64,000 bases of DNA, from positions 248,001 to 312,000 of the forward strand of contig NZ_CP091138.1 of the NCBI RefSeq assembly GCF_021582875.1. The letters run 5' to 3'. The notes below the pieces were generated by a model that did no database searches, was not told where the DNA came from, and saw nothing but the letters and a program-made list of their open reading frames with translations. Below, in pieces: positions 36,465 to 37,939 of this stretch; the stretch's first letter is position 1, and each line of letters opens with the position of its first letter. Source of the DNA: Microbacterium sp. KUDC0406 (GTDB lineage Bacteria; Actinomycetota; Actinomycetes; Actinomycetales; Microbacteriaceae). The translations under genes and the position numbers were made by a program.

Positions 36465-36899
36465 TCACCAGTCCGCTTCGGCGACCGCGGCGGGGCGGAT
36501 GCCGGCGTCGTAGACCCGCACCCAGGATGGGTGGACGGCGACCACGAGGAATCCGTCTGCGAAAGCCCGGGAACCGGGGAAACGACGCTCGTACGCGCTG
36601 CCGTACCGTTCCCGCTGCGCGCCGGTGGCGATGATCGCGGACCCCTCGGCCTGCACGCTCACGTCGCCCGCGCTCACGACCACCGCGACGCGGTCGTTCG
36701 TGCGCAGGTTGTCGACCTTGCGCGCGGCATCCGGCGTGTTGAAGATCAGGGTGCCGTCCTCGAGCGCCGCGAGGCCGACCAGGGCGGCTTCGGGGCCGCC
36801 GGCGGGGGAGACGGTCGCGACGACGCCGCATCCGATCCCGTCCGCGAAACGGGCGATCGAGGCGGGATCGTGCGGATCGGGGGCTGTCGCAGGGGGCAT
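36465..36899 (-). CDS. Pyridoxamine 5'-phosphate oxidase-like (FMN-binding split barrel) protein
   Basis: A 144-aa protein. ATVSPAGGPEAALVGLAALEDG, TLIFNTPDAARKVDNLRTNDRVAVVV and RYGSAYERRFP fit the PNPOx-like split-barrel fold of actinobacterial F420/FMN-dependent enzymes. The start ATG 36899 gives MPPATAPDPHDPASIARF. The substrate is unknown. Confidence 0.75.
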   Translation of the reverse strand: MPPATAPDPHDPASIARFADGIGCGVVATVSPAGGPEAALVGLAALEDGTLIFNTPDAARKVDNLRTNDRVAVVVSAGDVSVQAEGSAIIATGAQRERYGSAYERRFPGSRAFADGFLVVAVHPSWVRVYDAGIRPAAVAEADW

Positions 36900-36952
36900 G
36901 ATCGAGACACTAGCGAACGTCGAACACCGGCATACGCCGGATGATGACACGG

Positions 36953-37244
36953 TGGGCCCCGTGGGGCTCGAACCCACGACCCGCGGATTAACCTGCCACT
37001 TCGGCTTTCGCCGCCGCCCGGGTGGGCGTTCGTGGTCTGGACTGTCCCTTCACCCTGGCTTTCGCTTTAGGTGCCACCCGTCCAGTCTCTACACCTTCCG
37101 GACTCGCGTCCGGCTTGGCTCGGGATTGCCATCTGGTCTCCCAGGAAGGGTTCCCCGACTTTGAGTGGTGTCATCCCCGGGGTTTCCCCCGAGGCGCTCC
37201 TATTCTGTTGAAGTCCGATGCTCTGCCAACTGAGCTAGAGGCCC
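36953..37244 (-). tRNA. tRNA-Lys(UUU) interrupted by a group I intron
   Basis: Exon 1 (37211-37244) is the 5' half ending ...TCGGACTT; exon 2 (36953-36991) begins TTAATCCGC. Joined, they give acceptor GGGCCTC/GGGGCCC (one T-G pair), D-arm GCTCAGTTGGCAGAGC, anticodon loop CTTTTAA (anticodon TTT, Lys), T-arm GTGGGTTCGAGCCCCAC and discriminator A, 73 nt. There is a mismatch at 27-43 and CCA is not encoded. The 219-nt insert lies between positions 34 and 35, the same place as the cyanobacterial tRNA-Leu intron. Ordinary tRNA searches may report it as missing or truncated. Confidence 0.93.
36992..37210 (-). ncRNA. Self-splicing group I intron (IC3-like) in tRNA-Lys
   Basis: The conserved core is visible: P4 TCGGGG/TCCCGA with GATGGCAATCCCGAGCCAAGC, the R strand AGAGACTGGACGG and S strand GACAGTCC forming P7 (GACTG/CAGTC, a compensatory change from GACTA/TAGTC of other IC3 introns), P8 CACC...GGGTG, and GNRA-capped stems (P2 GAAA, P5 GAGA, P6a GCGA, P9 GAAA). 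The guide GAG, two bases before P2, pairs with exon CTT and puts a U-G pair at the 5' splice site. The intron ends in G. No open reading frame is encoded. Confidence 0.92.
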
Positions 37245-37309
37245 GTGTCCATCCAGTCTAGGGGGAAGGAATGGGCACACCGTTCGGGCAGCGCGCGTAC
37301 CCTGGGGCG

Positions 37310-37939
37310 ATGCCTGCACAGTTCCACCGTCCCGAGCGCCGCCCCTCAGCCGCCTTCGACAACCTGGTCGGGTCGCATGACCCGGCCGAGGAGACGCGGA
37401 TCGCGCACGTCACGGCATCCGCCCTGCTCGCGCGCGTGCGCGCTGACGACAGCGGCGTCAGCGCCGAGCGGTTGATCGCCTACACGGACGAGCACGGCAT
37501 GGACGAGATCGCCGAGCTGTGGTCGAAGGCGACCTCGCGATCCCTGCCGGGCGCACTGTGGCGGCTGTACCTCGTGCAGGCCGCGATCCACGGCGATCCG
37601 ACGACGACGGCGCTGCTCTACGAGCGCGGCCGAGTCGAGCTGCACAGCGCGGATGCCGTGATTGCGGGCGCTCCCGCTCCCGCGAGCCCCGAGGAGCTGG
37701 TCGGCCTGATCGACACGATCATGCGCGGAGCGTTCCGCGGTGACTTCGCCGTCGCGCTCGACCGCGCCGCCGCGTTCTGTCGCGTGCAGGCCTCCGGAGC
37801 CACGCACACCGCGGACGACTACGAGGTCACCGAGCCGGACCGCGCGAGCGACCTCACCCACCGGGCCGCGCGACTGAGTGCCTACGCCGACGATCTCACC
37901 GCCTGCGCGAGGGCCTGGCGCGCCGGCATGCTGACCTGA
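37310..37939 (+). CDS. Conserved actinobacterial hypothetical protein
   Basis: A 209-aa soluble protein starting MPAQFHRPERRPSAAFDNL at ATG 37310. It is rich in Ala-containing helices and has ELWSKATSRSLPGALWRLYLVQ and SPEELVGLIDTIMRGAF. In databases this family is sometimes mislabelled as an RNA polymerase beta subunit, but nothing in it resembles one. No function can be assigned. Confidence 0.75.
   Translation: MPAQFHRPERRPSAAFDNLVGSHDPAEETRIAHVTASALLARVRADDSGVSAERLIAYTDEHGMDEIAELWSKATSRSLPGALWRLYLVQAAIHGDPTTTALLYERGRVELHSADAVIAGAPAPASPEELVGLIDTIMRGAFRGDFAVALDRAAAFCRVQASGATHTADDYEVTEPDRASDLTHRAARLSAYADDLTACARAWRAGMLT

Follow-up and report, generated by a model that had tools for sequence, protein, structure and literature searches.

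Group I introns of tRNA-Leu(UAA) genes occur in cyanobacteria and plastids, and small group I introns also lie in the anticodon loop of bacterial tRNA-Ile(CAU), tRNA-Arg(CCU) and tRNA-fMet. The fMet and Ile2 intron cases are named in the available text of the tRNAscan-SE 2.0 paper (PMC8450103), and the hosts listed in that of PMC4033280 are cyanobacteria and alpha- and beta-proteobacteria. Among the matches listed in our mainly open-access literature search, no paper described a group I intron in a bacterial tRNA-Lys(UUU), apart from the claims in the accessible part of PMC5733544 of cyanobacterial 'group I introns' of 22–49 nt in tRNA-Lys, tRNA-Arg and tRNA-Gly; a search for Lys in the available portion of PMC11835236 returned nothing.

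Here we describe such a gene in Microbacterium, in what we call the window, the whole 64-kb stretch of DNA that was analysed. A tRNA-Lys(UUU) gene at 37244..36953 (-) is interrupted between U34 and U35 by a 219-nt group I intron, and ARAGORN names the joined exons tRNA-Lys(TTT), so that both the anticodon-loop location and the isotype given in the first-pass annotation were borne out. The parts of the locus are as follows.

37211..37244 (-), 5' exon, tRNA positions 1–34, ending in C32-U33-U34
36992..37210 (-), group I intron, 219 nt, last base G, with no need for a protein-coding frame
36953..36991 (-), 3' exon, tRNA positions 35–73 (UUAA...A73), CCA not encoded
37197..37200 (-), internal guide GGAG, forming P1 with 37210-37213 (CUUC), with U-G at the splice site
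37175..37194 (-), P2 hairpin, 8 pairs with a GAAA loop; two-sided changes in 7/8 pairs
37163..37168 (-), P3 5' strand, partner 37074-37079; two-sided changes in 4/6 pairs
37153..37158 (-), P4 5' strand, partner 37120-37125
37129..37150 (-), P5 and P5a, GAGA loop
37093..37119 (-), P6 and P6a, GCGA loop
37083..37087 (-), P7 5' strand GACUG, partner 37040-37044 CAGUC, crossing P3; two-sided changes in 2/5 pairs
37051..37073 (-), P8
36996..37035 (-), P9 three-way junction with P9a and P9b (GAAA loop)
37271-37939, flanking gene, no Pfam family
36465-36902, flanking PNPOx gene

In the splicing pathway that these parts suggest, the guide GGAG would pair with C32-U33-U34 and with the base that opens the intron; attack by guanosine would then cut off the 5' exon, and joining of the exons behind the terminal G would yield a mature tRNA-Lys(UUU) of 76 nt (73 + CCA), needed for AAA. 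Taken together, the sequence evidence makes it highly probable that the only tRNA-Lys(UUU) gene found in the genome is interrupted by an active group I intron.

P1 to P9b were drawn by hand from the window row and counted over an alignment of 44 sequences. Base pairing was found in 98.8% of 2705 cells (62 pairs, 44 sequences), and 32 of the 62 pairs changed on both sides, compared with 14.4 in shuffles, none of 500 shuffles being as high. When the partners were slid as a control, the best pairing was 46.3%, a control that favours a structure drawn from one row. All 62 pairs form in the window intron, where the P3–P9 core is complete and P3 crosses P7, and 56 of 62 form in the intron of the Gordonia phage Daredevil, described below. 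The folding energy of the window intron lies 3.2 s.d. below that of 200 shuffles, one of which folds equally well. The last pair of P7 takes all four Watson–Crick forms among the 44 sequences (G-C 38, A-U 3, U-A 2, C-G 1), and the exchange of GACUG/CAGUC for GACUA/UAGUC, the strands that the first-pass annotation gave for the Azoarcus tRNA-Ile intron, occurs among the relatives in the alignment. Subgroup IC3, a possible placement of the intron, is marked by signature helices and tetraloop contacts; GAAA loops in P2 and P9b are present in all 44. So is the terminal G, which was demanded by the 3'-junction search pattern, the window intron having been found without that demand. The splice-site U likewise stands opposite a guide G, with GGAG facing CUU and the first intron base, in 44/44, a count that is partly preset because the splice sites of relatives were cut with a pattern containing GACTT and GGAG. 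Thus the intron class proposed at first reading is upheld by a complete core with compensatory change, together with an Rfam match given below, and the P7 strands, GNRA loops (GAAA among them) and terminal G listed at that reading were all found in the window intron. The proposed guide pairing held for the U-G at the splice site and fell short in length, P1 being CUUC/GGAG, one pair longer than claimed. The idea of a P10 adapted to the new 3' exon was rejected: P10 is possible in 48/55 Lys introns, but in 7/15 Leu and 0/5 Gln introns.

The intron is easily overlooked by standard tools. When 501 bases were searched, Rfam RF00028 matched 37220..37031 (-) at 32.5 bits with E 1.4e-6, and the same intron was its sole match across the 3.61-Mb one-contig genome (E 2.4e-6). 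The score is below the RF00028 gathering score of 50 bits, a cut-off that belongs to the database and is not a biological feature; a standard Rfam scan of the window therefore comes back without this intron. ARAGORN with default settings reported tRNA-Pro and tRNA-Thr alone in the window and missed the split Lys gene, and its intron mode called the gene tRNA-Asn(GUU) with a 219-nt intron shifted by one base. The first-pass annotation had warned that gene finders could miss it. The same holds for the relatives: default ARAGORN detected the unspliced gene in none of 45 loci and named the spliced exons tRNA-Lys(TTT) in 45/45. These loci are 42 pattern stretches, the window, L037 and Daredevil, and L037 and L086 represent one strain.

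The genome has 46 tRNA matches, of which two are in the window; typing of the other 44 gave 43 names and one low-scoring match without a name. No second tRNA-Lys(UUU) was found among the 46, the only other tRNA-Lys being CUU, in agreement with the sole copy considered in the first-pass annotation. Unsplit genes were sought by an exact search for the arm GAGCNNNNGACTTTTAATC. This was missing from the window genome and from 32/33 carriers of the genus, and present in 33/33 hand-picked non-carriers. The exception is a carrier MAG (G505), where a further tRNA-Lys(UUU), intact and different from the split one, lies on a contig of 7.6 kb (L120 264-337, C75). By eye, this small contig also has large kinase-helicase-like and phospholipase-like frames, and misbinning is possible. 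The C34 of tRNA-Lys(CUU) should not read AAA, and the window does have AAA codons in use (17 vs 252 AAG, in 40 rough ORFs); splicing should therefore be needed. We infer both that the intron is spliced in the cell and that the cell depends on it.

The exons match what an empty site would look like, 73/73 bases being identical to the intron-free tRNA-Lys genes of seven congeners (8 loci, one genome twice). Both flanking genes surround filled (L089) and empty (L136) sites in close relatives. When intron presence was placed on a tree of the 37271-37939 gene, 8 changes were required, at least 5 of them forced by strong branches, in a non-random sample of 46 rows in which carriers are oversampled. 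In five strains the exons are 71/73 identical to those of Phytoactinopolyspora and 6 bases off the usual Microbacterium gene, and a close intron-free strain is without these divergent exons; the whole tRNA gene was probably exchanged in these five Microbacterium strains. The intron would be likely to move either by reverse splicing followed by recombination or by transfer of the entire intron-bearing tRNA gene.

Other readings of the locus must be set against these data. The tRNA-Asn(GUU) call made by ARAGORN with introns allowed, which moves the 219-nt intron by one base, deserves almost no credence: it would place an A, not a G, opposite the pre-intron base in P1 and put the final intron base in a variable column, the empty site of the seven congeners reads CUUUUAA, that is Lys(UUU), and a normal tRNA-Asn(GTT) is already present in the genome, where no other Lys(UUU) was found. 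It is also very improbable that the intron is dead, or the gene a pseudogene, with AAA decoded in another way. The case for activity is built from sequence and AAA is rare in the window, but a dead intron would hardly keep all 62 pairs, nor would compensatory change be expected across 44 sequences; moreover, 32 of 33 carriers have no unsplit copy to fall back on, and the other tRNA-Lys, with its C34, should not serve AAA. An old intron, mainly inherited within Microbacterium with many losses and little transfer, is unlikely on balance. Such a history would account for the Microbacterium-type introns forming one clade of 25 rows (96/96, a bootstrap value that is not settled), but the eight presence changes on the neighbour-gene tree, even in a sample that is not random, and the Phytoactinopolyspora-like exons of the five strains, unlike those of the close intron-free strain, speak against it.

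A whole-intron match was present in 33/366 Microbacterium genomes, which answers the question of whether relatives share the insertion; carriers include M. hydrocarbonoxydans and M. azadirachtae, and the nearest introns with a named source are likewise from Microbacterium. A 3'-junction pattern retrieved 42 stretches in GTDB species. Those from Actinomycetota include Microbacterium, Nesterenkonia, Tsukamurella, Mycobacterium, Phytoactinopolyspora, Frankiales and others; the remainder are from Alphaproteobacteria MAGs and one Gemmatimonadota MAG, misbinning being possible for MAG contigs. In viral contigs the pattern had one match, the Daredevil genome. RF00028 gave matches in 4/394 genomes of the class under strict filters, by which some were lost, and three of these are this intron. 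A second, divergent intron type occupies the identical tRNA-Lys(UUU) site in three more Actinomycetota genomes (L072, L125, L126). The first-pass annotation knew of no well-described Lys(UUU) case; the present one proves not to be isolated but one of a family in many genera and phages. Three further actinobacterial loci were seen in passing. One from another Actinomycetota genome (L124, G1389) has a related intron between CAU-type exons that splice to tRNA-Met(cat), probably fMet; another (L123, G1423) has a related intron with CAU-type exons and a possible coding insert, and received no call from ARAGORN. In another actinomycete genus, a group I match of 71.3 bits (L116, G765 C11 32590-32884) seemingly lies in 23S rRNA, judged by eye.

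Related introns are also found in other tRNAs. A 5'-half pattern yielded 60 viral stretches, which were spliced in two passes, giving tRNA-Leu(UAA) in 25, Lys(UUU) in 12 including Daredevil, Gln(UUG) in 6 (L179, L187, L197, L207, L214, L216), Glu(UUC) in 1 (L184) and Arg(UCU) in 1 (L209). The Gln, Glu and Arg genes are split after U34; insertion after CUU in all the viral cases was demanded by the pattern, and two of the six Gln cases also admit a Leu reading, for which the intron is shorter. In 15/60 stretches neither pass gave a tRNA, and some of these resemble coding DNA. With a guide that matches C32-U33-U34, an intron of this type can invade more than one U34 tRNA, and the Leu, Lys, Gln, Glu and Arg cases after U34 therefore indicate that one guide fits several of them. 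A related intron on enterobacterial plasmids matched in 1,275 records, 1,272 of them within the 60–80% band, and the two copies tested are in tRNA-Leu(UAA) at the identical site, with introns of 212 and 213 nt.

Some observations were made along the way on the Leu copies. The resistance plasmids NZ_KT818627, NZ_OP242236 and NC_004464 (L067-L069) have, at ∼2480-2780, an unannotated tRNA-Leu(UAA) gene with a group I intron of 212–213 nt, which has aac(3)-IId for a neighbour on two of these three plasmids. A match is present in 626/5,426 complete E. coli genomes. The huge phage LR756511.1 (L070) has a tRNA-Leu(UAA)-like gene with a 700-nt intron at ∼1398-2130, and this intron seems to contain an HNH-type frame, judged by eye.

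Named loci led to 40 other carrier genomes (locus L114 left out), and the unsplit arm was present in 7 of them. Two of the seven have intact tRNA-Lys(UUU) genes, both MAGs, and five have 5' halves only. These five are a Ferrovibrio MAG and four species of Nesterenkonia; N. alkaliphila, the remaining carrier in that genus, shows no half gene but a pair of intron copies. For each of the four Nesterenkonia species the 3' half was located at another place, preceded by the same core of 12 bp, CTTTTAATCCGC (L161-L168), and the joined halves are tRNA-Lys(TTT) in 4/4. The native tRNA-Lys(UUU) is thus halved by an integrated element in these species, and the intron-bearing gene is the only whole copy found. 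Going inward from attL, a tyrosine integrase is reached after 1.5 kb in both N. sedimenti and N. sphaerica and after 7 kb in N. salmonea, Pfam PF00589 having been tested on that of N. sedimenti only; in N. alba the 4.3 kb remaining inside attL showed none. The Nesterenkonia integrase resembles that of phage Fionnbharth (33%, E 1e-37), which, according to the available text of PMC10865867, was shown to insert at tRNA-Lys-TTT. By eye, the region downstream of attL in N. sedimenti is not prophage-like, and the 3' flanks of the intron genes and attR halves appear shuffled between species; because of this shuffling we do not claim that the intron gene lies inside each element. The half gene of the Ferrovibrio MAG is 77 bp before the intron-bearing gene, and neither an integrase nor the second half was found by motif on the 106-kb contig.

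The one phage retrieved by the 3'-junction pattern presents a similar arrangement. In the available text of PMC10865867, Daredevil targets tRNA-Lys-TTT without rebuilding it, has no tRNA of its own and forms clear plaques, and a figure legend names tRNA-Ile2 for it. Its genome has an unannotated tRNA-Lys(UUU) gene with a 238-nt intron at NC_048021.1 42131..41821 (-) (L066 3994-4304). A 15-bp core, CGGACTTTTAATCCG, lies 154 bp before this gene at NC_048021.1 42300..42286 (L066 3825-3839), with the integrase beyond it, so that the intron-bearing tRNA-Lys stands beside attP. Six relatives likewise have a tRNA at this position, upstream of the integrase and opposite to it, and the joined Daredevil exons are 86% identical to the Fionnbharth rescue tRNA. 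The sequence suggests that Daredevil does carry the cognate tRNA gene it was reported to lack. Both the Nesterenkonia and the Daredevil integrases use a short tRNA core and leave the gene without rebuilding it (for Daredevil, as stated in the accessible part of PMC10865867). In some genomes and one phage, where integrases target the anticodon loop of tRNA-Lys(UUU), the intron-bearing gene is, or could be, the rescue copy. The clear plaques reported for Daredevil speak against this reading and may reflect poor splicing or another defect.

A strict rule that rescue tRNAs hide the core was dropped after comparison of 10 phages besides Daredevil, several of which keep it. Four rescue tRNAs fit such a rule, deviating from the core at pair 31-39: those of Fionnbharth, of the near-identical Reptar3000, of BrutonGaster and of Appletree2. 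That of Breezona retains 9/11 core bases, and in the tRNA-Ile2 phages 10 bases (OneUp and SpeedDemon) or 9 (Mollymur, Bantam and DatBoi) are common with their own attP. No rescue tRNA was found for Moostard and Yuna in the stretch examined. Near the integrase of BrutonGaster (L236 8664-9881) and of OneUp (L247 1-264) there is an annotated 'tRNA splicing ligase'.

The intron splits the anticodon-loop core CGGACUU|UUAAUCCG that these integrases use, and two accounts of this position can be given. Tentatively, and with the odds rather against it, the intron may act as a shield: the core would be split in the DNA and the mature tRNA unchanged, so that attachment would be denied at a native gene, and elements and phages would gain an integrase-proof rescue tRNA. 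Since the intron of the window genus sits in the native gene, there it could only block incoming elements. The account that we consider probable is that of a selfish intron without benefit, spreading through its guide and through exchange of genes, with a position in integrase cores that is due to chance because intron and integrase both favour the anticodon loop. This would fit the many viral intron loci without an integrase match in the stretch examined, including 11 Lys loci besides Daredevil, the failure of Breezona and the five tRNA-Ile2 phages to hide the core, or to hide it fully, in their rescue tRNAs, and the patchy presence of the intron, which is consistent with gain and loss. Against pure chance, an intron-bearing gene accompanies a split tRNA-Lys or a same-core attP in four Nesterenkonia species, the Ferrovibrio MAG and Daredevil. 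From these sequence comparisons shielding emerges as a possible benefit and not as a general rule.

If shielding is true, the native gene of bacteria like this Microbacterium would be useless as an attachment site, and elements and phages would carry a rescue tRNA-Lys(UUU) immune to their own integrase, Fionnbharth, BrutonGaster and Appletree2 reaching the same end through another 31-39 pair and Daredevil through an intron. More broadly, a presumably essential tRNA joins the bacterial genes known to house group I introns, the AAA decoder of many bacteria and phages is open to being lost or misnamed in annotation, C32-U33-U34 offers a simple guide rule for which tRNAs can be invaded, and tRNA introns gain a testable link, absent from the first-pass annotation, with integrases that target tRNAs.

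It remains to compare the locus with the systems already described. The introns of PMC5733544, in its available text, include tRNA-Lys by name, but at 22–49 nt they are too short for a group I core and are a different thing. The group I introns of tmRNA, in the accessible part of PMC11915505, resemble ours in interrupting an RNA gene that is a favoured integration target, but lie in the tmRNA T-loop and not in the anticodon loop of a tRNA. With tRNA-dependent lysogeny, as presented in the available text of PMC10865867, Nesterenkonia and Daredevil have in common an integrase that splits tRNA-Lys(UUU) and the presence of a second cognate tRNA; what sets them apart is the group I intron in this second tRNA. 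The Microbacterium intron differs further, as it is in the native gene in its usual place, and no integrase match was found in the 64-kb window. The introns of tRNA-Ile(CAU), tRNA-Arg(CCU) and tRNA-fMet (PMC8450103, as far as its available text goes) are likewise small, in the anticodon loop and missed by tRNA finders, but belong to other isotypes and differ in guide and loop position. The closest likeness is to the tRNA-Leu(UAA) introns, in the site after U34, the guide for CUU and 74% intron identity to the plasmid copies, whereas the window has another tRNA, another 3' exon, an actinobacterial host and the sole AAA decoder. The intron would thus function like one of the tRNA-Leu(UAA) type, yet is not one, because its host gene is tRNA-Lys(UUU).
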